A stretch of 39,725 bases of DNA from the IMG/VR virus record IMGVR_UViG_3300025896_000062, positions 1-39,725 of that record. The stretch is one strand, 5' to 3'. The translations under genes were made by a program, and so were the position numbers. Source of the DNA: a virus. The stretch's first letter is position 1. Each line of letters begins with the position of its first letter. This document shows, in pieces, positions 957 through 39,725 of this stretch. The notes under the pieces were generated by a model that ran no database searches, had not been told where the DNA came from, and worked only from the letters and a program-made list of their open reading frames with translations.

Positions 957-3235
957 CCGCCAGAGCCGGAGCCGCCGCCGCCAAGGATGCCGGGGTTACC
1001 GGCTGTTGCTGACGCAACTGTTGCAGCCTGCGTAGCAATTGCGTTCAGGCCACCCGCAGCACTGGTTGTCGTGCTGCTATCAATAGCCGCGCCAGCGATA
1101 CCGCCGCCGCCGCCGCCGCCCGAATTAGCATTTCCGCCTTCACTGCCATTAAAACCGTTGGCCGCTGCTGTTGCTGCGGAACCGCCGCCTCGTCCACCCC
1201 CATCAACTGTGACAGCGCCAGATTGTTTTGTATTGCCGCCACTAAACTTGCTGGTCCCGAAACCGCTAGCTGCCGCGCCGCCAACACCGCCGCTGGCAAG
1301 CCCGCCCGTTCCACCTTTGGCAAGAACGCCTGTGGTGGTGGAGGTAGGTGCCGTATTGGACGACGTGTTAGTCGAGGTATCCCAGTTTAGCCATGTGTCG
1401 CCGCCAGCCGTGCCAGCCGTATTAGCCGCTGTCGCGCCTACGCCTTTGGAACCGATGGAGATGTAAACCGTTGAGCCTTTACCGAAAGCAAAGTCGCTGC
1501 TGACTGATGCAGCACCACCGCCACCGCCAAAACCTTGGTTGCCGCCATTGGTTGCACGGCCACCTGCACCGCCCGCGCCAATGGCGATGACGGTGTTGGT
1601 CGAGGACATGTCCGCCGGTGTCGTCCAAGTCGTGCCGCTGTCAAGAAGGACGGTCTTCTGCGTGGGTGTATAAGTGATGACAATCAGGCCAGTGCCGCCA
1701 GCTTGACCCTGCACGTTCGCCGCAGATCGCAACGCGCCGCCGCCGCCGCCACCATAAGCACCGCTGGTCGTGCCGCTAGCGGCTGTTGTCCGAGGACCAC
1801 CGCCTGTACCTGAGCCTTGAATACGACTAATATTGTTGTACACTGCTGCTGAGGTCCAAGTGTTTACGGCAAGGATTTCAGCACCTGCAGTGCCGTTATT
1901 ATTTGCTGCCGGTCCAGCGGTCGTGCCGCCGTTTGCGCTACCACCATTGGTTGATGTTCCAGCGCCACCTACCCCAATAGTACCCGCAGCGCCGCCTCCA
2001 GCCCCGCCGCGCGTAGAAGCAAGGCCAGCAGCACCATCACCACCTGAGTATTTTGTGGTTCCAACACCACTAGCAGCATCTCCACCTATTCCAGCCGTGC
2101 CGTTGGCCGCTGTAGTCGTGCCGCCGCCGCCAGTGCCGCCTTTAGCACCGACCGATGAAGCCGCGAGGTTCGCGCCGTTGAAATAGGTGTCACCGCCCGT
2201 TCCGCCGTTTCCCCCCGTTGCAGCGCCCGTCGAGCCGCCAGCCCCGGTGCCATAAGTGATAGTCGCACCAGCCGTCAGAGACAAATTGGTTATGGTTGAT
2301 GCTGCGCCACCGCCGCCGCCGCCGCCAGTTGCTCCAGATGTAGTTCCAGCCCCGCCGCCGCCACCTCCGCCGCCAATCGTCGTGATGCTATTGTTCGACG
2401 AGTTCCAGTCGGCGGGAACAAGCCACCTCGTGCCAGAAATCAGGAAGACCGTCTTGGACACGGGAGAATAGGTGATAATGATGGTGCCTTGAGCGCCCAC
2501 AGCGCCGTTGTTAGCGCCATAGCCACCGCTGCCGCCGCCACCGTATGCTCCGCCTACTTTGCCAACTCCTGCTGCTGTAGTTGCACCAGCACCAGACCCA
2601 GAACCTGCTGTTCCGCTAGTATTGCCGTATGTACCGCTATATGTATTAGTGTAGATTAAATTCGCCCCGGCGGTTCCCGCAGTATTTACCGCTCCGCCAG
2701 CGAGAGCACCGTTATTGGCCGTTCCGCCGGTAGTTGACGTACCGTTCCCGCCTGCACCAAGAGGCCCCGCCGCGCCGCCAGCGGAACCGCCGTATGTAGC
2801 TGTGACGCCCGCAATGCCATCGCCGCCTGAATACTTGAGCGTACCGATGCCACTTGCCGAAGCGCCGCCTGTGCCGCCCGTGCTGGTGCCGCCGCCCGTG
2901 CCGAGCCCACCGCCCTTGGCTCCTACGGATGACGCAGCTAGAGAAGCGCCATTGAAATAGGTGTCGCCACCCGTTCCACCGTTGCCACCTGTTGCCACAC
3001 CAGCCGAGCCAGCAGCGCCAATGGCATAAGTAATTGCAGCGCCGGGGGTAAGCGTAAGGTTAGTTACGGCAGAATAAGCGCCGCCGCCGCCACCTGCGCC
3101 GCAGAACGTAGGACCGCCATTGCCGCCAGCGCCGCCGCCACCGCCCGCGCCGATCACCTCAATCTTGTTATCGGCAGCATTCCAGTCCGCCGGAACCGTC
3201 CAGGACGTTCCAGCGGTTAGGATAATGACGGGCAT
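1..3235 (-). CDS. giant glycine-rich tail fibre / adhesin (copy A, C-terminus cut by window start)
   Basis: Open frame of about 1078 codons from the ATG at 3235 to the window edge. By alignment with the right-end copy, only the last two codons and stop are missing. It holds three Gly-rich modules (about 3235-2500, 2480-1690 and 1670-730), each opening with an SGT-W-x-x-PAD motif and closing with G-A-Q-G-x-x-I-I-x-Y-like strands. Modules 1 and 2 share GDTYFNGA and SSVGAKGG blocks. Then come about six 21-23 aa Ala/Ser/Thr repeats (x-L-x-A-T-E-x-x-D) and a charged C-terminal domain ending in acidic residues and poly-Leu. Gly-rich modules of this kind occur in phage fibres and adhesins; receptor binding is inferred. 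It follows a 58-aa gene in the late operon. Confidence 0.85.
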   Translation of the reverse strand, partial: MPVIILTAGTSWTVPADWNAADNKIEVIGAGGGGGAGGNGGPTFCGAGGGGGAYSAVTNLTLTPGAAITYAIGAAGSAGVATGGNGGTGGDTYFNGASLAASSVGAKGGGLGTGGGTSTGGTGGASASGIGTLKYSGGDGIAGVTATYGGSAGGAAGPLGAGGNGTSTTGGTANNGALAGGAVNTAGTAGANLIYTNTYSGTYGNTSGTAGSGSGAGATTAAGVGKVGGAYGGGGSGGYGANNGAVGAQGTIIITYSPVSKTVFLISGTRWLVPADWNSSNNSITTIGGGGGGGGAGTTSGATGGGGGGGAASTITNLSLTAGATITYGTGAGGSTGAATGGNGGTGGDTYFNGANLAASSVGAKGGTGGGGTTTAANGTAGIGGDAASGVGTTKYSGGDGAAGLASTRGGAGGGAAGTIGVGGAGTSTNGGSANGGTTAGPAANNNGTAGAEILAVNTWTSAAVYNNISRIQGSGTGGGPRTTAASGTTSGAYGGGGGGALRSAANVQGQAGGTGLIVITYTPTQKTVLLDSGTTWTTPADMSSTNTVIAIGAGGAGGRATNGGNQGFGGGGGAASVSSDFAFGKGSTVYISIGSKGVGATAANTAGTAGGDTWLNWDTSTNTSSNTAPTSTTTGVLAKGGTGGLASGGVGGAAASGFGTSKFSGGNTKQSGAVTVDGGGRGGGSAATAAANGFNGSEGGNANSGGGGGGGIAGAAIDSSTTTSAAGGLNAIATQAATVASATAGNPGILGGGGSGSGGANTGQTGGAGGPGQYYILSTGIAVGPGGGAGGGGGNSGTATAGTGGAAGLYGGGGGGGGGSSTTGNGGNGAQGAMLIIYTPLTTVTGSLVATEAADAASFALSAAHLASLAANENSDTAALALSTAYSASLAATEPTDSASIGLSAATTLSLSATEAADTAVIVSGNFLVASFALTEASDSVTIALAAKHTASLSASEPTDSVALGLDTTPVRRGGGGSGRRTRYLVYRNNAVTKIEAASLPKRLKKRTVSPAIAAEVNALLPRFLGFTPEIVQAALPDTFYIPSTLAGESDNIALALAAYLKRLDDEEEDDIELLLL
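340..720 (-). repeat. Ala/Thr-Glu-Asp protein repeats in fibre A (about six units)
   Basis: Degenerate 63-69 bp units encode 21-23 aa repeats with the core x-L-x-A-T-E-x-x-D-x-x-x-x-x-L-S-A. They sit between the last Gly-rich module and the C-terminal domain. Copy A lacks one unit that is present in the right-end copy. They probably form a beta-rich or trimeric stalk; that is inference. Confidence 0.75.
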
Positions 3236-3247
3236 GGCGGTTCCGTC

Positions 3248-3424
3248 TTAGGCGTTCGGATCAATGAACGATTGGCTTATGTCGTCGTAAACCCAGCCAA
3301 TGTCGCAAGGAATGTCGGTCACGTTGACAAGCCGAGTGCCTTCAGGGGCCGCATCGACTTCTGCATTGGCAACAATCACGTTGATTACAATCAATGTTGC
3401 CAGATCAATAACCGCTGCACGCAT
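3248..3424 (-). CDS. small fibre-associated protein, 58 aa
   Basis: A 58-aa ORF from the ATG at 3424, preceded by GGGGGTGA about 5 bases upstream. It begins M-R-A-A-V-I-D and ends with a conserved-looking I-P-C-D-I-G-W-V-Y-D-D region. Small proteins of this style, with 'VDVTDIPCDIGWVYD'-like ends, sit next to fibre or baseplate genes in many proteobacterial phages, usually as hypotheticals. It lies 12 bases upstream of the giant fibre start and may help fibre folding or attachment; that is inferred only from position. Confidence 0.75.
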   Translation of the reverse strand: MRAAVIDLATLIVINVIVANAEVDAAPEGTRLVNVTDIPCDIGWVYDDISQSFIDPNA

Positions 3425-3862: not shown

Positions 3863-6151
3863 TTAGTTCAACAGTTTCCGGGTGCCGACAGCCTTGCCGG
3901 TGGCCGGGTCGCGGACAATTTCAGTGGGGGCGCTAAGGTGCTGCGCCAAAGCCTGCTGGCCCTGCTGCACTTGCCCCATGGCCTGCATAACCGCCTGAGT
4001 GGACGCCATCAGGCTTTCGGCAATCAGGTCGAGCTTGTCTTTCGGCTGTGTGGTGCCATCGGCAACAGCCATGTCTTTCATGCCGAGTTTCAGCAGTTCG
4101 ATCTCGCGCTGCTGCGCCAACTCAGTCTGGCGCATCGCCATTTCGTTCTGGAATTTGTACATTTCAAAGCGCTGCTGCTGCTCTGCGGTCGCCATGTCGG
4201 CCTGCATCTGCGCGGCTTCCTTGGAGGTCGCAGCCTCGGCCTTCTGCTGCTCCAACTGCATTTGGGCTTGCAGCTTCTGCTGCTCAACGCTGGGCTGTTG
4301 TGAGGCTTGTGCCGCAGCCTGTTTCAGGCCCTGCACATCGTCCTCGCCAAAGTCCGGGTAGTAAAAGTCGGGGCTTTTGAGGCCCGCTGACTCGGCGATC
4401 TTCTTCATGGTCTCAACGACCTTGGGCAATAGGTCGATGGCCTGCTCGGTTGCGCCCGAGCTTTGGAAGCGGTCGGCCAAAGCGATCTGGTTCTGCAACA
4501 CGCCCTGAAGCATCATCATATCGCGCTCACGCGAGCCGGTGCCCAAGCCGACATTGATGGTGCAGTCCATATTGGCGTTCCACACGCGGGGATCCATTTC
4601 CACGAACTCATCCCGCAAGCGGATGATACGCGGGCGGTCCTGATGCTTGACGATCAGGCGCAGGATTGACTGAAACACGCGTTTCCAGCCCAGTTCGGCC
4701 ATGTTGCGGGCAATCAGTTCGATCTGCGAATAGGACGCGTCGCGCTGGTTCTGCGAGGCGGTGGCGGTCTGGTTCTGCAAGGCCTCGGGGTCAAGCGCCA
4801 TTGACTGCCGCGATACGCCTGTGCGCCTAGCCACAACCTCATCCATGAACTGGATGGCGCTAAACGCCTTATCGGCAACGAAGGGCACAATATGCGGCTG
4901 AATCGGCGCGGTGCCCGGCTTCTTCCAGATCAACCCACCAAACTTTGGCGCAACGAGAATGTCCGGGTTCTGCACCGACCCAGCCTCAACCTCACGCATT
5001 GGCATATTGGAGGCGTAGAGGTTGTCGAGCGCCTGGCGCAGCAACTGCGTCTTAATGCGCTGGATGTCCTTGGTGCGGTCGGCGACGCTATCGGCGTCCC
5101 AGCGGTGCGGGATCGGGTAGCAAGGAATGTCCGTGTACGGAACATCGTCTTCCCACTGCGTCCACTTGAGGATTTTGCCCCCACCAGCGTTCCCGGCGTA
5201 CCAGACCTGCACCTGCTCAGCGATGCCGTCATTGTCGATGTCAGCTTTGACGTAGCATTCGTAGAGGTCGATGAAATCCTGCGACTTCAGCGTATTGGTG
5301 CGGAGGTTGAGGAAATTGTCGGTGCGGGCAATGCCCTCGGCATTATCAAGGCGCTGGCTGTGCGCGGCCAGATCGGCCACCACATCCTTGTCAAAGCCCA
5401 TTTCGATGAGGTCGGATCGGGTCTTGGTATCGTGCAGATAGGCAATGAACCGGGCGTCTTCAGTAGAGGTCGCGTCGGCGTCAATGTAGAAGTTCTCGGG
5501 CTTCACGGCACGGACATCGAGGCGACCGCGAGCGCTTTCACGCTTCACCTTCACATCAAACGTCGGCACCGGCATGTCCACCATCTGCCCATCAGGGCCG
5601 GGGGCGGAAATCATGTCGGGCTCGTCATTCTGGCTGTGGGCGATAATCTCCACGCCATCTTCGTCCATCAGCAGCGCCAGTTGCGGCGGCGTTAGGCGAG
5701 AATGAAACGACACCTCAACCTTGGGGCTGTCGTCCCAGCGGTGATAGATGATGCCATTGCCATTGAGCAGCGCGTCGTGGGTGGCATTGTACAGCGTGCG
5801 GTAGCCGTCATTGTCCGACATGAACACATAGTTCACGTAGTCGGTGGCCTGCTTGGCGAACTCAACATCGTTCTCGCGCATCGGCTCATAGAGCGCCATG
5901 TGGTCGGACGCGGTGAACACCCGGACGATGCCGGGGAGCATCCAGGCAATCGTATCGCTGACATCCATTGACACGACCGACGAGCGGTTAGCCGGGGGCG
6001 GCAGGTCGCGCATGTCGCCGCGCAGATATTCCATGTTCTCAACGCGCTTGGCGACGAGTTCCGACTTGGCAAACTGATGCGCGGAAGCCAGTTCAGCCGC
6101 GATGAGCGACGAGAGGTCATTGCCCTCAATGTCGGGGATGTCTTCGGCCAT
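3863..6151 (-). CDS. portal protein, 762 aa
   Basis: Twelve-subunit portal through which DNA enters and leaves the capsid. At 762 aa it fits the large P22/SU10-type portals. It has an N-terminal helical region, a central stem/wing region with P-Y-x-D-I-P-C-Y-P-I-P-H-R, the Q-N-Q-T-A-T-A-S-Q-N-Q segment typical of this class, and a long Gln/Ala-rich coiled C-terminus (roughly residues 610-720) suggesting a barrel. I chose the ATG at 6151, which overlaps the terL stop as TAATG. It sits directly downstream of terL, as expected in a packaging module. Confidence 0.93.
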   Translation of the reverse strand: MAEDIPDIEGNDLSSLIAAELASAHQFAKSELVAKRVENMEYLRGDMRDLPPPANRSSVVSMDVSDTIAWMLPGIVRVFTASDHMALYEPMRENDVEFAKQATDYVNYVFMSDNDGYRTLYNATHDALLNGNGIIYHRWDDSPKVEVSFHSRLTPPQLALLMDEDGVEIIAHSQNDEPDMISAPGPDGQMVDMPVPTFDVKVKRESARGRLDVRAVKPENFYIDADATSTEDARFIAYLHDTKTRSDLIEMGFDKDVVADLAAHSQRLDNAEGIARTDNFLNLRTNTLKSQDFIDLYECYVKADIDNDGIAEQVQVWYAGNAGGGKILKWTQWEDDVPYTDIPCYPIPHRWDADSVADRTKDIQRIKTQLLRQALDNLYASNMPMREVEAGSVQNPDILVAPKFGGLIWKKPGTAPIQPHIVPFVADKAFSAIQFMDEVVARRTGVSRQSMALDPEALQNQTATASQNQRDASYSQIELIARNMAELGWKRVFQSILRLIVKHQDRPRIIRLRDEFVEMDPRVWNANMDCTINVGLGTGSRERDMMMLQGVLQNQIALADRFQSSGATEQAIDLLPKVVETMKKIAESAGLKSPDFYYPDFGEDDVQGLKQAAAQASQQPSVEQQKLQAQMQLEQQKAEAATSKEAAQMQADMATAEQQQRFEMYKFQNEMAMRQTELAQQREIELLKLGMKDMAVADGTTQPKDKLDLIAESLMASTQAVMQAMGQVQQGQQALAQHLSAPTEIVRDPATGKAVGTRKLLN

Positions 6152-7410
6152 TAAACCACCCAATCGGTCTGCACTTGCGGCAGGTCTTTCAGCTTCGGGG
6201 CGTCGTCTGCGCCCATCACGCCGTAGCGGAAGGCGTCAGCCCCATGCGAGGCGCTATCGTGCAACGGGCGGGGCCGCAGCACTTCGTTCTTGGTGTCATA
6301 CTCGGCCCGATACATGCGAAGCCGGTCGAGCCCGAGGGCGCACTTGTCAGCGTCAAACCAGAAGCGGTTGAAGCGAACACGCGCCGCGTCGATGCCGTCC
6401 ATCACTTCATGGCGGGGAACGATGCGGACGTTCAGCCCGCGCTCCTCAAGGAACTGCTTGCGGCTTTTGCCGGTCTGCAATTCCCGCGCCTCAGCGTCGT
6501 GCGGCAACAGATGCTCGTGAATGGTGTAGCCTCGGGCCTTCACCCAATCGACGTAGTGGTCAAGCGCCTGGCTGCTGGCTTCGTAATAGTCGAGCCAATG
6601 CCATTCACGGCCGATAATCTGGCCGACCCAGATGGCGGTCGAGTCAGCAATGCCCAAGTCCCAGGAGGCGAACACATCGGCGCTGCGCTCAAGCGGCACC
6701 TTGGTGATCCGCCCGTCATTGCTCGCCGCTTCCATTTCGCGGCCATAATAGGCACCGGCTACAGCCGCCTGGAACGAACATTCATATTCCTGGAGGAAGG
6801 CCTCCGGCGTCATCTGTTGCTTTGCGTCTGCCAGTTCCTTCGGGTCAATGATCCCGGTTTCTGACGACTTCAGCGTGGCAGCGAACCAATCCTCGTTACC
6901 CCGCGCTTCCTGCACGATGTCATAGAAGCGGTTACGGCCCTTTGGAGTGCCAATGAATGAAGCCCAACCCTTGCGGTCGCTGAGCGCCGGTCGGATCACT
7001 TCCACCCAGGCACGGGGATCAATGTCACCGCTTTCATCAATCACCACGCCGTCGAGGTACAACCCGCGCAAGCGCTCATAGTTTTCCGCGCCATAAAGCC
7101 GGATGCGAGCGTCATTGTGCGGCAGCGTTACCGACAACTCCGATTCCGAGGTCTTAATGCCCGGAATGGAGGCCGTGTATTCCTTGAGGTAGCTCCACGC
7201 TACGTCCTTGGCCTGAGCATAGGTCGGCGCGACATAAGCGAAGCGCGGCGCACGGCCCTGATGGGACACGGCTTTAGCAACAAGGTCCATGACGCAGGCT
7301 ACGGTCTTGCCTGCCCGTCGATGCGCCACCACTGCGGCCCATCTTTCCTTGCGCGTGAGGTACGGCACAAAGGCAGGGCGCGGAATGAACTCAATTTCGA
7401 TTGAGCGCAT
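6151..7410 (-). CDS. terL: terminase large subunit, 419 aa
   Basis: ATP-driven DNA packaging motor and headful or cos nuclease. Visible motifs: Walker A H-R-R-A-G-K-T (residues 30-36), Walker B V-V-I-D-E-S near residue 125, coupling motif I-G-T-P-K-G, and an RNase H-like nuclease starting S-W-D-L-G-I-A-D-S. The ATG at 7410 was chosen; upstream GTG and TTG codons are in frame. It overlaps terS by 20 bases and couples to the portal by TAATG. Cutting specificity cannot be read from sequence. Confidence 0.95.
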   Translation of the reverse strand: MRSIEIEFIPRPAFVPYLTRKERWAAVVAHRRAGKTVACVMDLVAKAVSHQGRAPRFAYVAPTYAQAKDVAWSYLKEYTASIPGIKTSESELSVTLPHNDARIRLYGAENYERLRGLYLDGVVIDESGDIDPRAWVEVIRPALSDRKGWASFIGTPKGRNRFYDIVQEARGNEDWFAATLKSSETGIIDPKELADAKQQMTPEAFLQEYECSFQAAVAGAYYGREMEAASNDGRITKVPLERSADVFASWDLGIADSTAIWVGQIIGREWHWLDYYEASSQALDHYVDWVKARGYTIHEHLLPHDAEARELQTGKSRKQFLEERGLNVRIVPRHEVMDGIDAARVRFNRFWFDADKCALGLDRLRMYRAEYDTKNEVLRPRPLHDSASHGADAFRYGVMGADDAPKLKDLPQVQTDWVV

Positions 7411-7645
7411 CGCCACCAAACGACACTTTGACGCTGATCGGCCCGCCGTCTTCGCCGGTCACTTCAACCGCGGCCAGATCGGGCAGGACTTTCTTCATCA
7501 GCGCAATAGCAGCAGACACTTGCGTGCTGCTCATTTCACGCACACCTTCAACATGCTCAATTAAAGCATTGAGAATGTTGCTATTTTGAATTTTAACCCG
7601 ATGTTCGGGCGACATTGTGAAGCCTGGGCTTCTTCCACGAGTCAT
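7391..7645 (-). CDS. terS: terminase small subunit, probable, 84 aa
   Basis: Small basic N-terminus (M-T-R-G-R-S-P-G-F) followed by a helical region containing E-M-S-S-T-Q-V-S-A-A-I-A-L-M-K-K-V-L-P-D-L, a pattern seen in short terS proteins of proteobacterial phages. It would recognise the packaging site and regulate TerL. It overlaps the terL start by 20 bases. The ATG at 7645 is preferred to a TTG at 7699, which would run into the operator dyads. It is the first gene of the late operon. The family call rests on position and style. Confidence 0.82.
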   Translation of the reverse strand: MTRGRSPGFTMSPEHRVKIQNSNILNALIEHVEGVREMSSTQVSAAIALMKKVLPDLAAVEVTGEDGGPISVKVSFGGDALNRN

Positions 7646-7771
7646 GTATTTACCTCGCCGGGGCCAAGTGGCAGATCGGCATTTGCTAAGCGCAAGCACA
7701 TATTTGTGCTAAATGTCGTTTACTTGCACATTTGTGTGCAGTAGGGTCAGCCGTCAACCAAGGAGGCCACG
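7646..7771. promoter_or_regulatory. divergent control region between terS and the plus-strand HTH unit
   Basis: 126 bases separate the start of the leftward late operon from a rightward two-gene unit with a strong AAGGAGG ribosome site at 7759-7765. It holds the two dyads listed separately. I cannot assign confident -35/-10 boxes; a TTGACG on the minus strand near 7755 is the best single hexamer. Confidence 0.65.
7695..7740. promoter_or_regulatory. two operator-like inverted repeats, 30 bp centre to centre
   Basis: Dyad 1 is AGCACA-TATT-TGTGCT (7695-7710). Dyad 2 is TGCACA-TTTG-TGTGCA (7725-7740). Both have perfect 6-bp arms and a 4-bp spacer, and their centres are exactly 30 bp (about three helical turns) apart. 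This is typical of cooperative binding by a dimeric HTH regulator. The nearest candidate is the 61-aa HTH protein encoded at 7945. Confidence 0.75.
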
Positions 7772-7948
7772 ATGGCAACCACAAAATGGGCCGTTTACAG
7801 CACTGACCTAATCACGCGGGACACTGCGTTCCCGTTTGTCGAAACGCTTGTGAGCATTCATGACAGCGCATCAGATGCGATGGGCGAAGCAAATCGGCTG
7901 AAGCGCGAGGATCGCAGCAAGTCCTACATCGTTGGCGAGGCGCAATGA
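7772..7948 (+). CDS. small hypothetical protein, 58 aa
   Basis: A 58-aa ORF starting M-A-T-T-K-W-A-V-Y-S with an excellent AAGGAGG ribosome site 6 bases upstream. Its stop overlaps the next gene as ATGA, so the two are translationally coupled. It has no membrane segment or recognisable domain. It may be a partner or antagonist of the downstream HTH protein, or simply its leader gene; function unknown. Confidence 0.75.
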   Translation: MATTKWAVYSTDLITRDTAFPFVETLVSIHDSASDAMGEANRLKREDRSKSYIVGEAQ

Positions 7949-8130
7949 CCCCGGAAGATTTTGCCCGCTGGCGCAAGCTGATGGGCCTCAGCAAGCTTAA
8001 GGCGGCTGAAGCCCTTGGCATTTCGCGCAACATGCCCGCCAAATACGAAAGCGGGGAACGCGAGGCCCCGTTGACTGTGGCCTTGGCCTGCGCAGCGCTG
8101 TTGCGCGGCGTTAAGCCTTGGCCCGAATAG
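7945..8130 (+). CDS. small HTH (XRE-like) regulator, 61 aa
   Basis: A 61-aa protein that is almost wholly one helix-turn-helix: F-A-R-W-R-K-L-M-G-L-S-K-L-K-A-A-E-A-L-G-I-S-R then K-Y-E-S-G-E-R. This is the Cro/CI (XRE) signature, with the expected Ala-Ala-x-x-L-G-I turn. It is coupled by ATGA to the 58-aa gene and transcribed away from terS. It is the obvious candidate to bind the 7695-7740 dyads and set the timing of the late operon; that is inference. It has no dimerisation domain beyond the HTH. Confidence 0.82.
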   Translation: MTPEDFARWRKLMGLSKLKAAEALGISRNMPAKYESGEREAPLTVALACAALLRGVKPWPE

Positions 8131-8176
8131 CCAGCCACCTCAACGAAGGTGATGCGGGTCAGACCCTGAACTGGCG

Positions 8177-8419
8177 CTAGTCGGCGTCAGGCGTGAGCAG
8201 GGCCAGCTTGGCCTTCTCCATCGCCCAAAGCATTTCGGGTTTCGTGGTGAGGTTGCTCACCATGTAAAGCGTGTCGTCCCGATCCCAGCCGAGGATCACG
8301 ACTTCCGGCAGGTCGGCCTTGATCGCTTCTCGAAGCAGCATGTCAGCCGAGAACGGCTGCTTGGTCTGGCCGGGGAATAGCTCGACGTTATCGTTATGCG
8401 GCTTTTCAGGCGCTGCCAT
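8177..8419 (-). CDS. hypothetical protein, 80 aa
   Basis: An 80-aa protein with an N-terminal P-H-N-D-N-V-E-L-F-P-G segment and a compact domain containing V-V-I-L-G-W-D-R-D-D-T-L-Y-M-V-S-N-L. The latter resembles small phage proteins predicted to fold as one alpha/beta unit. The ATG at 8419 was chosen because GGAG lies 8 bases upstream; the longer form uses a TTG at 8443. It follows the 67-aa gene in the same orientation and converges on the 61-aa HTH gene. Function unknown. Confidence 0.7.
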   Translation of the reverse strand: MAAPEKPHNDNVELFPGQTKQPFSADMLLREAIKADLPEVVILGWDRDDTLYMVSNLTTKPEMLWAMEKAKLALLTPDAD

Positions 8420-8443
8420 TGGGCGCTCCGTGATCCCTGTCAA

Positions 8444-8647
8444 TCAATGCAGCACCTCCGGGTCATCAGTCATGGCGCGAGCCAGCGAATTGTTTGCCGC
8501 GTACAGCGTGGCAATCTGCAATTCGAGCATGGCAATGATGTCGGTGAGCCGGTCATTGTCTTCGCCGCTGAGCGTCACGGCTTCGTGGTTATCGGCAGCG
8601 GTAAACAGCCGCGTCAGCAGCGCGTCGTCTAGTTCGGCTTCGTCCAT
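8444..8647 (-). CDS. hypothetical acidic protein, 67 aa
   Basis: A 67-aa, strongly acidic, helical protein (starts M-D-E-A-E-L-D-D-A-L-L, with a central D-I-I-A-M-L-E-L-Q-I-A-T-L-Y-A helix suggesting a coiled coil). It begins about 110 bases beyond the terminator that closes the early minus operon, so it may be expressed by readthrough or its own promoter. No family recognised. Confidence 0.65.
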   Translation of the reverse strand: MDEAELDDALLTRLFTAADNHEAVTLSGEDNDRLTDIIAMLELQIATLYAANNSLARAMTDDPEVLH

Positions 8648-8757
8648 GAGGACCGCCTATGCTGGTGAGTGGTGCCCGCTGCTCGTCGCTGGGTGGAGGA
8701 ACCAAAGCGACTGCTTGTCCTAGGCCGCGCTGGCGGGCGCAGCGTAACCCTGAAAAC

Positions 8758-8784
8758 GCAAAAACCCGCACCAGTGCGCGGGCT
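8758..8784 (-). terminator. rho-independent terminator of the early minus operon
   Basis: Read on the minus strand, CCCGCGC-ACTG-GTGCGGG forms a 7-bp stem (one G-T pair) followed by TTTTTG. It lies 75-100 bases beyond the stop of the last early gene (8857) and inside a 209-base gene-free gap. Confidence 0.8.
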
Positions 8785-8856
8785 TCATGCATCAGAGACG
8801 GTAAACCGCACCCTGAAAACACCGACACATTGCGCTGATTTGCCCACCATTGCAAG

Positions 8857-9438
8857 TCAAGCGGCGTGCTTGTGAATAAGTCCATAGTGCTTGGCTAGGG
8901 CGTTCAGCGCCAACCGCAGATCACCCACCAGGTGCCAGAGCGCTACGTCCCGGCACACGCAAAGATCGAGCGCCGCAAGCAGCGTCGCATCGTTGCGAAG
9001 TGCGTTCTGCGCCACCTGCACGGCATTCAGTGTTGCCTCATAGCGGGCCACTGCCTGCTGAGTGCGGCTGATGTTCTCGCCGCTCGCCCTGCCCTGCACT
9101 CGGTTGAGGTCTACAGCGTCCATTTCGGCCGGGGCACTGATTGCCCGCCGATAGGCGTCACGCTCAGCGAGGTAGGTCTTCGCCGCATCAAGCTGGGCCG
9201 GGGAGATCGCCTTTTTATCGCAGAGCCGCCCAACGAATGACCCGGCATTCTGTCCTTTGGCACGGTCGAGCGGGACACCGTGGACGCGGACGCGGGCCAT
9301 GACCGCAACGTGCATCGCGTCCCAACTTTCGGCGTTGATCGCCGCAGACTCGCGGGCTTGGCGTTCGGCTGGATCACGGCTCAGGCGTCCGTTGAGTTCA
9401 CGCTTGCCGGGAGAAGGTTTCTTGCCACGCTTGCCCAT
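8857..9438 (-). CDS. hypothetical early protein, 193 aa
   Basis: A 193-aa protein with a basic N-terminus (G-K-R-G-K-K-P-S-P-G-K-R), then a mostly helical body with K-K-A-I-S-P-A-Q-L-D-A-A and a C-terminal A-L-N-A-L-A-K-H-Y-G-L helix. Its start overlaps the methyltransferase stop (TAATG at 9438). It is the last gene before the operon terminator, the place where lambdoid phages often encode antiterminators or late regulators. I cannot recognise such a domain, so function is unknown. Confidence 0.75.
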   Translation of the reverse strand: MGKRGKKPSPGKRELNGRLSRDPAERQARESAAINAESWDAMHVAVMARVRVHGVPLDRAKGQNAGSFVGRLCDKKAISPAQLDAAKTYLAERDAYRRAISAPAEMDAVDLNRVQGRASGENISRTQQAVARYEATLNAVQVAQNALRNDATLLAALDLCVCRDVALWHLVGDLRLALNALAKHYGLIHKHAA

Positions 9439-10610
9439 TATGCTGCCTCCTCATTAACTGACGCGGCCAACTTCTTGTCCACCATGTCAATGCGTTCACC
9501 GATCCAGCGCATGACGTTGACCGCCATACTGTTGCCGAGCGCCTTGTATCGAGGTCCATCAGCGGCAGGCTTATTGCGGTGCGAAACCAGCGTGAAATTG
9601 TCCGGAAATCCCTGCAAGCGCTCACATTCCGTGGGCATAAGGCGGCGGACGGCCATGCCAACCGAAACAGCCATCGGGTTTTTCGCCTGCAAGGTCTGGT
9701 TCTCTCCGGCATCGACCTGCGGCACGCTCATCTTTGCGCCGAAGCTGATGGGCTGCTGCACATAGTCGCCACCCTGGTTGCCGGTCGTTGGGCCAGTAGC
9801 CATCAGCGGCTGCGCTACATCAACCGCTCGGGCCTTGTAATCCTTGCCGCTGTTCTGCGGCATGATGGAGTAGACAACCGGAGCTTCATGCAGGCAAGTC
9901 AGGCTTGGCGCACCACCATCAGTGCGGATTTCAGCATTCGCTTGGCCGCTAGACATGACGATAGTTTGGTCTACTTCACCACTGCTACCAGTGCCTGATG
10001 CAACGCCTCCGGCAACTCTTTGCCCCGCTTCTCGGCGCGGCGGAGGATCCCCGCGCAAGCTTTGGCCGTCAAATAGTACCGCTGCGGCAGGTCGCCAGTC
10101 TCCAAAATATCCGACAACGAACACACGCCGCCGCCGTTGAGGAACGGCATGTTCAAAGCCGCGTGTTCGGACGAACTGAGCGTCCAGCACTCGGTAGGCG
10201 AACCCATACCCGAGTTCTGCCAGCCCCCGGAGGAAGGTGCCAAAGTCCCGTCCTCGGTTGGATGACAATACGCCGGGGACATTCTCCCAAACCAGCCATT
10301 GGGGGCGACGGCGTGCAGCAATGGCAAGATAGGTAAGCATGAGATTACCACGGGGGTCAGCCAATCCGGCTCTAAGGCCCGCGATTGAAAAGGATTGGCA
10401 GGGTGTTCCGCCGACAAGAAGGTCAATTGCATGGTCAGGCCACTCGCTAAATTTTGTCATGTCGCCGTGGTTCGGCACATCAGGGTAGTGGTGAGCCAAG
10501 ACCGAACAAGGAAACGGCTCAATCTCGGAAAAAAACACTGGCTCCCATCCAAAAGGGTGCCAGGCCATCGTTGCGGCCTCTATGCCGCTGCACACTGATC
10601 CGTAGCGCAT
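9438..10610 (-). CDS. dcm: DNA (cytosine-5) methyltransferase, orphan, 390 aa
   Basis: Methylates C5 of cytosine using S-adenosylmethionine. It shows motif I V-C-S-G-I-E-A-A near residue 6, motif IV G-G-T-P-C-Q-S-F with catalytic Cys71, motif VI W-E-N-V, motif VIII P-Q-R-R-R-R-V-F, and motif X G-N-S-M-A-V near the C-terminus. The variable target-recognition region lies about 185-320. No cognate restriction gene is nearby, so it is an orphan, probably guarding phage DNA from host restriction or acting on regulation. It is coupled by TAATG to the upstream replication-type gene. Confidence 0.95.
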   Translation of the reverse strand: MRYGSVCSGIEAATMAWHPFGWEPVFFSEIEPFPCSVLAHHYPDVPNHGDMTKFSEWPDHAIDLLVGGTPCQSFSIAGLRAGLADPRGNLMLTYLAIAARRRPQWLVWENVPGVLSSNRGRDFGTFLRGLAELGYGFAYRVLDAQFVRTRGFEHAVPQRRRRVFVVGYFGDWRPAAAVLFDGQSLRGDPPPRREAGQRVAGGVASGTGSSGEVDQTIVMSSGQANAEIRTDGGAPSLTCLHEAPVVYSIMPQNSGKDYKARAVDVAQPLMATGPTTGNQGGDYVQQPISFGAKMSVPQVDAGENQTLQAKNPMAVSVGMAVRRLMPTECERLQGFPDNFTLVSHRNKPAADGPRYKALGNSMAVNVMRWIGERIDMVDKKLAASVNEEAA

Positions 10611-13413: not shown

Positions 13414-13611
13414 TCATGCGGGCACCAGCGCGAAGTCATTAGGCGTGACCTCGCCATTCGTGACCTCGTAGATGCGGCGAAGCTGTCCCGGCATCGGGAA
13501 GCGCTCACCCCGGCACCACTTGATGACGGCCGAGCGCGACACCCCACCGATCAGGGCGGCGGCTTGTTCGTAGGTCAGCCCATTGGCTGTGATGTAGGTG
13601 CGAAGGTTCAT
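13414..13611 (-). CDS. Cro-like / YdaS-type HTH repressor, 65 aa
   Basis: A 65-aa protein with one HTH: L-T-Y-E-Q-A-A-A-L-I-G-G-V-S-R-S-A-V-I-K-W-C-R-G, then G-Q-L-R-R-I-Y-E-V-T-N-G-E-V, which is the YdaS/Cro style. It is divergent to the CI-like repressor across 83 bases and is first gene of the early lytic operon, so it should repress the repressor gene during lytic growth. Start at 13611 has no ribosome site and may be leaderless, given TTGTCA-N17-CATAAA just upstream. Confidence 0.82.
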   Translation of the reverse strand: MNLRTYITANGLTYEQAAALIGGVSRSAVIKWCRGERFPMPGQLRRIYEVTNGEVTPNDFALVPA

Positions 13612-13694
13612 GGGGTGTTTATGCCCCAAAGTGAGTAACATGACAACCCTTAAATGAGGAGGGACATGCAACTCGATACGGGTGTAACTCGGCT
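13612..13694. promoter_or_regulatory. cro-cI intergenic operator/promoter region (OR analogue)
   Basis: On the minus strand TTGTCA-N17-CATAAA is a plausible promoter for the Cro-like gene. AAATGAGG at 13652-13659 is the same 8-mer as the half-sites of the 14559 dyad (CCTCATTT inverted). GAGTAAC (13633-13639) and GTAACTC (13684-13690) form widely spaced inverted half-sites. Confidence 0.55.
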
Positions 13695-13698
13695 ATGA
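13666..13698 (+). CDS. 10-codon leader ORF coupled to the repressor
   Basis: ATG at 13666 is preceded by AGGAGGG (13658-13664), the best ribosome site in the immunity region. The 10-aa product (M-Q-L-D-T-G-V-T-R-L) ends at TGA 13696-13698, overlapping the repressor ATG at 13695 as ATGA. The repressor itself has no ribosome site, so its translation probably depends on ribosomes ending this leader. Confidence 0.6.
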   Translation: MQLDTGVTRL

Positions 13699-14402
13699 GC
13701 GAAAAACTGAAAGCCGCCCGTGAAAAAGCGGGGATGACCCAGGAACAGGCTGCGGTACGTTTGGGTATGTCGCGCAGCAACTACATCAAGTTAGAGCGTG
13801 GCGAGCGGCAGTTCCGCGAGAAATATGTTGTGCTTGCCGCGCAAGCGTTCGGGGTCGATCCTGCCGACCTGATCGACAACTCAACGCCGCTCAATCAATT
13901 GCTGGAGACAGCCAGGCCCCATATCGGCAAAACGCTGCCTTTTGCGGGCTATGTTGCTGCGGGCCTATGGCACCCTGTGGACGACCTCGATCAAGACGGT
14001 GGCCGTCAGGTGCCTGACTTTGTGTTAAGCCACCCGGCTTATCCCAAGGCCCGCCAGTATGCCTACATGGTGCGCGGCGACAGTATGAACCTCGCCGGAA
14101 TCGATGATGGCATGTGGGTGGTTGCTGCCGATGCTGCCGACTTCGTGGACTTGTATGGGGAAACCGAAAGTGGCGATCTGGTGGTGGTCGAGCGCAGCCG
14201 CCTTCAGGGCTCAGAACGCGAATTGACCGTTAAGGAAATCCGCTTTTACCGCGACCGCTATGAGCTGTTGCCACGATCCAGCAATCCAGTTCACCAGCCT
14301 ATCGTTGTGCAGCACAACCACGGCGTAGACCCCGACAAAGAGGAAGTACGGGTCATTGGCGTGGTACTGACCTCTTATCGGGATCATCGGCGGCGAAAAT
14401 AG
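13695..14402 (+). CDS. CI-like repressor, HTH plus S24 peptidase, 235 aa
   Basis: Maintains lysogeny and is cleaved on SOS induction. N-terminal XRE HTH (M-T-Q-E-Q-A-A-V-R-L-G-M-S-R-S-N-Y-I-K-L-E-R-G) at residues 14-36. A LexA-like C-terminal domain has the Ala89-Gly90 cleavage bond in V-A-A-G, nucleophile Ser130 in G-D-S-M, and general base Lys180 in T-V-K-E. It is divergent from the Cro-like gene and followed by a strong terminator. Likely binding sites are the flanking dyads at 13.65 kb and 14.56-14.61 kb. Confidence 0.95.
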   Translation: MSEKLKAAREKAGMTQEQAAVRLGMSRSNYIKLERGERQFREKYVVLAAQAFGVDPADLIDNSTPLNQLLETARPHIGKTLPFAGYVAAGLWHPVDDLDQDGGRQVPDFVLSHPAYPKARQYAYMVRGDSMNLAGIDDGMWVVAADAADFVDLYGETESGDLVVVERSRLQGSERELTVKEIRFYRDRYELLPRSSNPVHQPIVVQHNHGVDPDKEEVRVIGVVLTSYRDHRRRK

Positions 14403-18652: not shown

Positions 18653-18965
18653 CAACAAGGAAATGAAAATGGAAAATCTGACTATCAACGGTATCGAATA
18701 CGCACCTGTAAACAAGCCAACCGGCACCCGTGCCGTAGTCGTGGTGGATCGCGGCTGGATTTTCGCGGGTGACGTAACCCGAGCCAATGGTCGCATCTGC
18801 CTGAGCAATGCGCTGCATGTGTTCAAGTGGGAAAACCTCGGCTTCTCAGGAATGATTGCCGACCCGAAGAAGGCCAAGGCCGATCTGCGCCTATGCGCCG
18901 ATGTTGACATGCCGGAAGGTGCGGAAATCTTCTGTGTCCCGGTTGCTGACGGGTGGGGGCTGTAA
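18645..18965 (+). CDS. DUF6948-like conserved phage protein, 106 aa
   Basis: A 106-aa protein with V-V-V-V-D-R-G-W-I-F-A-G-D-V near residue 31, W-E-N-L-G-F-S-G-M near residue 63, and an E-I-F-C-V-P-V-A-D-G-W-G-L C-terminus. This set matches the DUF6948 family of phage proteins, whose function is unknown. The start overlaps the previous gene (ATGAGTGA) and its stop overlaps the Gly-Tyr gene (TAATG). Confidence 0.8.
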   Translation: MSDNKEMKMENLTINGIEYAPVNKPTGTRAVVVVDRGWIFAGDVTRANGRICLSNALHVFKWENLGFSGMIADPKKAKADLRLCADVDMPEGAEIFCVPVADGWGL

Positions 18966-19273
18966 TGGCCCCCGCCACCATGCCTGTCGGCTCCGGCTAC
19001 GGCTACGGCTACGGCTACGGCGACGGCTACGGCTACGGCGACGGCTACGGCGACGGCTACGGCAACGGCTACGGCAGCGGCAACGGCTACGGCTACGGCA
19101 GCGGCAACGGCTACGGCGACGGCTACGGCTACGGCTACGGCAGCGGCAACGGCGACGGCTACGGCTACGGCTACGGCTACGGCAGCGGCAACGGCTACGG
19201 CGACGGTACTGGTTATGGTACTGCTTCACCGCATCGCATGCGCCGCATAGCACTGGAGGCCAAGGATGAGTAG
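18965..19273 (+). CDS. (Gly-Tyr)n low-complexity repeat protein, 102 aa
   Basis: A 102-aa protein with a 10-residue start (M-A-P-A-T-M-P-V-G-S), 38 consecutive Gly-X dipeptides where X is Tyr, Asp, Asn, Ser or Thr, and a short basic tail (H-R-M-R-R-I-A-L-E-A-K-D-E). The start at 18965 couples to the upstream gene as TAATG and the stop overlaps the excisionase gene. Similar Gly/Tyr/Asp repeats appear in other alphaproteobacterial phages next to DUF6948-type genes, without known function. Composition suggests a disordered, sticky, tyrosine-rich chain. Confidence 0.82.
   Translation: MAPATMPVGSGYGYGYGYGDGYGYGDGYGDGYGNGYGSGNGYGYGSGNGYGDGYGYGYGSGNGDGYGYGYGYGSGNGYGDGTGYGTASPHRMRRIALEAKDE
18995..19222 (+). 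repeat. hexanucleotide tandem array GGC-TAC/GAC/AAC/AGC, 38 units
   Basis: Thirty-eight in-frame 6-bp units, mostly GGCTAC with interspersed GGCGAC, GGCAAC and GGCAGC. Higher-order blocks such as GGCAGC-GGCAAC recur several times, showing expansion by duplication. Unit length 6 means copy-number change preserves the frame. Confidence 0.95.
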
Positions 19274-38692: not shown

Positions 38693-39725
38693 TCAGGCTG
38701 CAAGCAGCAGCAGTTCGATGTCGTCTTCTTCCTCGTCATCGAGGCGTTTCAGATAGGCAGCGAGCGCCAGGGCAATGTTGTCGCTCTCCCCGGCCAAGGT
38801 GCTGGGGATGTAAAAGGTGTCCGGCAACGCGGCTTGGACGATCTCCGGGGTGAACCCCAAAAACCTCGGGAGCAGCGCGTTGACCTCAGCCGCGATTGCA
38901 GGGCTGACCGTGCGTTTCTTCAGCCGCTTCGGTGGGCTTGCCGCTTCAATTTCCGTAACCGCGTCGTTACGGTAGACCAGATAGCGCGTCCGACGCCCGC
39001 CACCACCGCCACCGCGTCGAAGGGGCGTGGTATCTAGCCCAAGGGCCACAATGTCAGAGGGTTCAGTGGCTGCGAAGCTGACCGTGAGGGTGTCAGCGTT
39101 GCTGAGAACAAACGCGGTAATGTCGCCGGCTTCTGTCGCTGCCAGCGCCAACGTATGGGACGCCGACAGCGCAATGGTTACGCTGTCGCTGGCCTCGGTT
39201 AGGGCAAACGAGGCAACGACAAAATTGCCGCTGACAATGACCGCCGTATCGGTAGCTTCGGTTGCGCCTAGACTAAGCGTTGTTGCCGCACTGAGGCCAA
39301 TGCTGGCCGAGTCGGTCGGCTCAGTTGCCGTGAGGCTGGCCGTGTGGGTAGCCGAAACAGCCAGTGCCGCCGTGTCGCTGTTTTCGTTTGCGGCCAGGCT
39401 GGCAAGATGCGCTGCACTAAGTGCGATACTGGCAGCGTCGGCCGCTTCTGTAGCAACAAGCGATCCGGTAACCGTGGTGAGCGGCGTGTAGATAATAAGC
39501 ATAGCGCCCTGAGCGCCATCGCCACCGTTACCGGTTGTGGACGAACCGCCGCCACCGCCGCCGCCGCCGCCGTAGAGACCAGCAACGCCACCTGTGCCAG
39601 CAGTTGCTGTACCGGAGTTACCGCCACCGCCACCGGCACCGCCGCCGGGGCCAACAGCGATACCCGTTGACAAGATATAATACTGGCCGGGTCCACCAGC
39701 ACCGCCAGTTTGACCCGTATTTGCA
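38693..39725 (-). CDS. glycine-rich tail fibre, second C-terminal copy (N-terminus cut by window end)
   Basis: The C-terminal part of a fibre nearly the same as copy A: a Gly-rich module end, seven 21-23 aa Ala/Thr-rich repeats (one more than copy A), then the C-terminal domain (T-R-Y-L-V-Y-R-N-D-A-V-T-E-I-E) ending D-D-E-E-E-D-D-I-E-L-L-L-L-A-A. Stop at 38693. The frame remains open to the window edge. It is either the same gene as copy A in another variant of a circular genome, or a tandem paralogue directly upstream of it. Confidence 0.88.
   Translation of the reverse strand, partial: ANTGQTGGAGGPGQYYILSTGIAVGPGGGAGGGGGNSGTATAGTGGVAGLYGGGGGGGGGSSTTGNGGDGAQGAMLIIYTPLTTVTGSLVATEAADAASIALSAAHLASLAANENSDTAALAVSATHTASLTATEPTDSASIGLSAATTLSLGATEATDTAVIVSGNFVVASFALTEASDSVTIALSASHTLALAATEAGDITAFVLSNADTLTVSFAATEPSDIVALGLDTTPLRRGGGGGGRRTRYLVYRNDAVTEIEAASPPKRLKKRTVSPAIAAEVNALLPRFLGFTPEIVQAALPDTFYIPSTLAGESDNIALALAAYLKRLDDEEEDDIELLLLAA
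38701..39725. repeat. right copy of diverged terminal duplication
   Basis: Counterpart of bases 1-956. Same order and frame, with scattered substitutions and a 69-base insertion that adds one protein repeat unit. It ends in the middle of the third Gly-rich module. Confidence 0.9.

Follow-up and report, generated by a model that had tools for sequence, protein, structure and literature searches.

Two perfect dyads upstream of hth61, a gene for a 61-aa HTH protein (HTH61) in a virus record, are very likely operators of that protein, situated within the promoter that drives its operon. Together with the gene that precedes it, orf58, hth61 probably forms an autorepressed, Aca-like accessory operon that is divergent from the terminase genes of the phage. 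The case is built from comparison of sequences: the dyad pair lies in the promoter of the operon, recurs with relatives of the HTH gene, and is found with first genes that are unrelated to one another. The term "window" refers to the whole stretch of DNA that was analysed, a virus record of 39,725 bases that has the hallmarks of a temperate phage.

Dyads and promoter in the window

A leftward gene run in the window leads to the terS-like gene, terL, and the portal gene (Table 1), and the rightward orf58-hth61 unit is embedded in this run. The terS-like protein has no match of its own in PHROG or Pfam. The stop codon of orf58 overlaps the start codon of hth61 (ATGA), and the hth61 product is a bare HTH_3 domain whose Pfam match exceeds the curated cut-off. 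A terminator-like hairpin is present on the minus strand at 8761-8786, inside the leftward gene run. Elsewhere in the record, the ends (1-956 and 38701-39725) form a direct repeat of about 1 kb with 86.5% identity, the result of gene duplication or of an assembly that ended in a repeat, and the hexamer CGGCTA is repeated in tandem (36.5 copies, 18988-19206) within a 106-aa ORF (18953-19273, plus strand) that translates as a Gly-Tyr repeat protein.

Table 1. Positions of genes, predicted operators, and promoter elements in the window
Feature	Position	Strand	Description
Portal gene	3863-6163	leftward	phrog_1216
Terminase large subunit (terL)	6151-7419	-	phrog_2, E 1.9e-36
terS-like gene	7391-7645	-	Heads the divergent late operon; many relatives are followed by terL
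Predicted upstream operator O2 (IR2)	7695-7710	.	Perfect dyad AGCACATATTTGTGCT (arms AGCACA and TGTGCT, loop TATT)
-35 hexamer of the rightward promoter	7719-7724	+	TTTACT; weak match, at the same place as TTGACA/TTGACG in relatives
Predicted core-promoter operator O1 (IR1)	7725-7740	.	Perfect dyad TGCACATTTGTGTGCA (arms TGCACA and TGTGCA, loop TTTG); fills the -35/-10 spacer
-10 hexamer	7742-7747	+	TAGGGT; 3 of 6 matches, 17 bp past the -35 hexamer
Putative ribosome-binding site	7760-7766	+	AAGGAGG; read from sequence
orf58, first operon gene	7772-7948	+	58 aa; predicted beta-beta-alpha-beta fold, no known family; candidate accessory or anti-defence protein
hth61	7945-8130	+	61-aa HTH_3 protein (Pfam HTH_3, E 2.9e-8); proposed Aca-like autorepressor
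Cro-like HTH gene	13414-13671		Gene calls and domain search
CI-like S24 repressor	13695-14402		Gene calls and domain search

An earlier note on this DNA had described two perfect dyads, spaced exactly 30 bp apart, between terS and a divergent HTH unit, and both the dyads and their placement were borne out. Direct reading of positions 7681-7747 gives two dyads of 16 bp, each with 6-bp arms and a 4-bp loop, whose starts are 30 bp apart. They are flanked on one side by the terS-like gene, whose minus-strand start codon (ATG) is at 7645, and on the other by the unit encoding the 58-aa and 61-aa proteins (7772-8130, plus strand), in an intergenic region that is common to both units, at a distance of 50 bp from the terS-like start. 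The two are the sole occurrences of GCACANNNNTGTGC (GCACA-N4-TGTGC) in the 39,725 bases, whereas 100 dinucleotide shuffles of the window contained a mean of 0.09 copies and none contained two. Further, the paired-dyad score of the 500 bp upstream of hth61 was matched by 0 of 60 shuffles. With up to two mismatches allowed, the window has 17 dyad-like sites versus 32.7 expected, and this lack of a surplus indicates that the dyad pair is a single locus rather than part of a scattered regulon. Two other identities for the dyads were rejected: a search with Rfam for an RNA element gave zero matches in the window, and no dyad copy with two or fewer mismatches was found in the CI/Cro control region (13590-13720).

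The rightward promoter of the window (TTTACT-17-TAGGGT) is weak, with 7 of 12 consensus matches, and a simple promoter scan of positions 7300-9500 detected no promoter. Among related loci (designated here by L numbers), the layout is regular. In 11 of 12 loci, L099 being the exception, O1 sits between the -35 and -10 elements of the best plus-strand sigma-70 match, with the -35 element 7-12 bases ahead of O1 and the -10 element immediately past O1 or touching its end. The -35 element is TTGACA in L105, L107, L124, L103, and L121, and TTGACG in L106 and L108; O2 is located upstream of it, outside the rightward core promoter. A control promoter from phage ZF40 has the same layout, with a dyad (TGTTCGCGATTGCGAACA) between TTGCTT and TATAAT; the gene downstream is presumably acrIF8, in the acrIF8-aca2 operon. 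The same promoter layout and leader were also observed at L121 (10194-10240), here with two 15-bp palindromes (GCACCCGTTAGGTGC); this contig, which stops ahead of any HTH gene, perhaps carries a related cassette whose operator differs.

Probable operator pairs among relatives of hth61

Relatives of hth61 were gathered from viral contigs (25 loci and 5 loci) and from bacterial genomes (2 loci). Close relatives are few: once recurring contigs are merged, identity to hth61 is 62% or higher for seven sequences, hth61 itself included. A protein search of 50,697 phage records gave zero matches; matches were obtained in 10 of 385 alphaproteobacterial genomes, with a high score in the seed genome only, and plasmids contributed three more distant relatives, each part of a longer annotated protein.

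The earlier note had also proposed a search for GCACA-N4-TGTGC at the same location in related phages. As an exact motif, GCACAN4TGTGC is absent from the first 100 related loci (L003-L102), a result that is misleading because relatives carry GCAT/GCAC variants; in variant form, pairs are indeed conserved upstream of HTH relatives. A clear dyad pair is present in the window, in the close relatives L105, L106, L107, and L108, and in the more distant L124, L082, L083, and L099. The four close relatives have two GCAYNNNNNNGTGC-type dyads upstream, spaced 31, 31, 31, and 42 bp, with GCGC replacing GCAY in the O2 of L108; L103 has O1 but no clear O2, and in L104 a weak second site accompanies O1 at a distance of 32 bp. 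Spacings across loci are 30, 31 (five loci), 32 (three loci), 34, and 42 bp, the last corresponding to one extra helical turn. When paired dyads were scored in 24 HTH loci with 60 shuffles of each, none of the shuffles reached the observed score in the window, L107, L108, L124, L082, L083, or L099, while two did so in L105 and three in L106. Similar values were obtained for L087 (2/60), L088 (4/60), and L090 (1/60), where the pairs could not be linked to a promoter. In the other 12 loci, shuffles equalled the observed score at least nine times, and the distant HTH relatives L081, L086, L109, and others of the 24-locus scan had no pair. Additionally, a third site-like sequence (GCATATATTAGTGC) overlaps the -10 region of the L108 promoter (3099-3112).

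The operators and the recognition helices of the proteins appear, from their sequences, to co-vary across the HTH family. Proteins with the helix SRNMP are found with GCAYA...TRTGC, GRRTL with GCGCA...TGCGC, and APNSG with TCGCA...TGCGA. The changed half-sites occur in L082 (GCGCA/TGCGC) and in L083 and L099 (TCGCA/TGCGA); despite these changes and those in the recognition helices, the spacings are still 31, 34, and 32 bp, respectively. The pairs that accompany APNSG, of the TCGCA-N4-TGCGA type, are located at 2751-2798 in L083 and 2613-2658 in L099. The series of helices and operators provides a useful natural set for the study of protein-DNA specificity.

Terminase neighbours and exchangeable first genes

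Terminase genes occupy the divergent strand in 10 of 11 distinct loci (the window, L103-L108, L124, L083, and L099, but not L082). The small-subunit genes, or those at the corresponding position, belong to PHROGs 1482, 8771, 51, 309, and 83, with none assigned for the window. The first divergent gene encodes an HNH endonuclease in L106 and L103 and is terS in L105, and its distance from O2 is variable. The recurrence of this location, and the position of O2 as the site that is closest to terS and outside the rightward core promoter, would suit bidirectional control, in which HTH61 represses its own operon and, via O2, also represses a divergent late promoter until the packaging genes are needed. 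Such control is unlikely. A conserved leftward promoter was not seen, the best sigma-70 matches on the minus strand near O2 being scattered without a consistent promoter position (as judged by inspection, for promoters of the sigma-70 type); the gene that would be controlled is not conserved; and a second repeat, according to one report, is also present in several acr-aca promoters and is dispensable for repression by Aca1 and Aca2 (PMC9410906). The position is common among these loci and the gene is not, and the terminase-divergent location is read here as an insertion slot rather than as a regulatory target.

Searches with the sites alone led to the HTH gene. A site matrix was built from ten sites of five other phages and applied by leave-one-out, with L105 and L106 omitted together. 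Among all positions of the window, it ranked O1 first and O2 second; the two sites held ranks 1 and 2 in four of six loci (the window, L106, L107, and L124) and ranks 1 and 3 in L105 and L108. A DNA-only pattern of two sites with TTGAC between them, applied to 2.9 million viral contigs with no protein information, identified a total of four stretches. Three were the contigs of the known HTH loci L107, L106, and L105, and the fourth was a new locus, L124, in which another small ORF is followed, as second gene, by that of a 64-aa HTH relative (44% identity), with terS and terL on the divergent side. Upstream of terS, a matrix scan recovered the site pair in 0 of 75 relatives of the terS-like protein, a few of these loci having less than 400 bp of upstream sequence, and one good single site-like match in 3 of the 75. 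Taken together, the matrix ranks, the blind pattern matches, and the null result for terS indicate that the dyads are tied to the HTH gene rather than to the late operon.

These results divide the central proposal of the earlier note, namely that the dyads form a second, independent switch that is worked by the HTH protein and gates the late transcription of terS and the genes downstream. Its first half stands, in that the dyads are, to judge from sequence, most likely operators of the 61-aa protein and are conserved in relatives. Gating of late transcription, although favoured by the shared intergenic region and the frequent terminase neighbours, is quite improbable: O1 is part of the core promoter that drives the HTH operon, the pair is missing from all 75 terS relatives, and inspection of the minus strand for sigma-70 promoters showed none at a consistent position. 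Moreover, the pair persists beside unrelated divergent genes, facing terS in L105 and the endonuclease gene in L106 although the HTH proteins of these loci are 95% identical, and the main DNA match between the two starts at O2 and extends to the stop codon of the HTH gene, away from the late side. The terS-like gene is probably a neighbour of the dyads and not their main target.

The first genes of the operons are exchangeable. Among nine first-gene products that were compared, only 1 of 36 pairs is related (orf58 and its counterpart in L125, with 60% identity), with one further pair at E 0.11, versus 21 of 21 pairs among seven HTH proteins. The HTH proteins of L103, L105-L108, and the window are 62-95% identical and yet their first genes are unrelated, including those of L105 and L106. 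In L105 and L107, DNA homology is confined to the promoter and leader, from O2 to the first ATG (2842-2924 in L105), and to the HTH gene (3123-3305). The first-gene stop codon overlaps the HTH start codon in the window, L105, L106, L107, L108, and L103, and the two genes are separated by an 11-bp gap in L124. Short pieces of 39-45 bp in L105 (2783-2821, 3731-3775, and 4756-4799) are 95-98% identical in the otherwise mostly different L106.

Comparison of the first genes with NCBIfam, PHROGs, Pfam, and the PDB identified no characterised family and, to the extent that these collections include Acr models, no known Acr. The first gene of L099 belongs to phrog_5423, which has no assigned function, and one of the leftmost genes in a T7-like Pseudomonas phage is related to it. 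L125, the sole source of an orf58 relative, carries it likewise as the first gene divergent from the terS of another phage. With the orf58 model (pLDDT 85, 2-row alignment), a PDB fold search returned nothing better than E 0.88, and the matches in BFVD are uncharacterised small phage proteins only (best E 0.0043). That orf58 and HTH61 are the toxin and antitoxin of a type II system, with the antitoxin autorepressing through the dyads, is very unlikely: the toxin-first gene order, the nearness in fold of MqsA and HigA2, and a weak match to the MqsA-family model that falls below the cut-off are in its favour, but the first genes match no toxin family and differ even where the HTH proteins are 95% identical, such that a conserved toxin partner is lacking, and HTH61 is without a toxin-binding extension.

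Likeness to Aca systems and other regulators

The preferred reading, an Aca-like operon, is consistent with the predicted structure of HTH61, a four-helix HTH (pLDDT 94, 16-row alignment). In a VIA-align comparison of the model with 613 chains, Z scores were 10.7 for NE0471, 10.2 for SO3848, 10.0 for Aca10 (rmsd 1.0, 54 aligned), 9.9 for Aca2, 9.3 for HigA2, 9.2 for MqsA (range for MqsA/HigA2 8.8-9.3), and 7.8 for Aca1; a Foldseek search with the model gave zero matches past E 0.001. The HTH fold is common, so the fold match supports but does not prove kinship with Aca proteins. At the level of sequence, phmmer against PDB chains placed Aca1 at E 0.43-0.52 and a profile search found no Aca at 0.01.

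Acr-associated Aca proteins are described, in one report, as HTH proteins of mostly 60-65 aa; those assayed there repress their own promoters, and IR1 is always within the core promoter, with IR2 present in several Aca families (PMC9410906). HTH61 is likewise a small single-domain HTH protein, its gene is downstream of a small gene in one operon (L104, which is without a first gene, being the exception among relatives), an inverted repeat lies within the core promoter, and one HTH gene is accompanied by differing first genes. All of the anatomy that was tested fits; since the defining trait of an Aca is its association with a proven Acr, the system is named Aca-like and not Aca.

From the dyads, promoter layout, conservation, exchangeable first gene, and HTH fold, we infer the following course of events. 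Upon entry of the phage DNA the promoter would be free, and orf58 and hth61 would be transcribed. As HTH61 builds up, a dimer would bind O1 and so occupy the -35/-10 spacer, which would exclude RNA polymerase; a second dimer, bound to the same face of the DNA at O2, roughly three helical turns further upstream, may assist by cooperative contact. Expression of the operon would be an early pulse, followed by self-shut-off. The architecture is like that of acr-aca operons, with a single promoter, an exchangeable small gene, and a conserved gene for the proposed HTH repressor. The cassette would have been inserted as an accessory element at the terminase end of the genome, on the strand opposite to the terminase genes. 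By analogy, orf58 is a plausible candidate for an anti-defence or host-takeover protein. According to published work, one aca recombines with different acr genes (PMC9765179, which adds 36 new Aca families), acr clusters with other anti-defence genes (PMC7648647), and a conserved regulatory sequence has been used to find anti-defence genes in archaeal viruses, with the suggestion that Acas may also control anti-defence genes other than acr (PMC11065993). In open-licence PMC papers, no report of this HTH family or of a terminase-divergent aca locus was found.

A broader proposal is put forward tentatively: HTH61 might represent, to judge from the Aca sequences among PDB chains, an Aca family that is new to description and belongs to phages of soil and of alphaproteobacteria, and the promoter cassette (O2, TTGAC, O1, leader, exchangeable gene, and HTH gene) might be a dedicated anti-defence slot divergent from terminase, whose eight mutually unrelated first-gene families would be anti-defence proteins not yet recognised, open to collection with the operator pair alone. 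If the Aca-like reading is right, the operator pair would serve for searches that do not start from a known anti-CRISPR, in keeping with the retrieval of HTH cassettes with different first genes from viral contigs by the DNA pattern alone. It would also provide a handle on anti-defence genes in phages without any known, and the late-switch reading of this region would be corrected.

Q-type and CI/Cro systems are switches of phage late genes. The control region described here resembles them in adjoining the late operon and differs in that the sites are in the promoter of an accessory operon and do not follow the late genes. With the MqsA and HigA2 antitoxins, the cassette shares the HTH fold, the gene order, and the predicted autoregulation via operator repeats, as described for them in PMC9410906, and it differs from such type II systems in that the family is without a conserved toxin partner. 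The likeness is greater to acr-aca operons (Aca2 of ZF40, Aca1 of JBD30, and Aca10), which, according to two reports, have a small HTH gene last in a short operon, a dyad in the core promoter and a second dyad, and unrelated genes in first place (PMC9410906; PMC9410881). The printed Aca1 probe even carries GCACA/TGTGC half-sites (PMC9410881), with a spacer of 1 bp versus 4 bp here. Unlike in those operons, the first genes match no known Acr and the cassette is divergent from terminase genes; a comparison with PDB chains gave no sequence-level membership of HTH61 in a published Aca family. Finally, the anti-defence (Aca8) regulons of archaeal viruses have archaeal promoter elements and mostly single genes, in contrast to the two-gene cassette of the window, and share with it a conserved promoter, unrelated small early genes, and a small HTH protein as the predicted repressor (PMC11065993).
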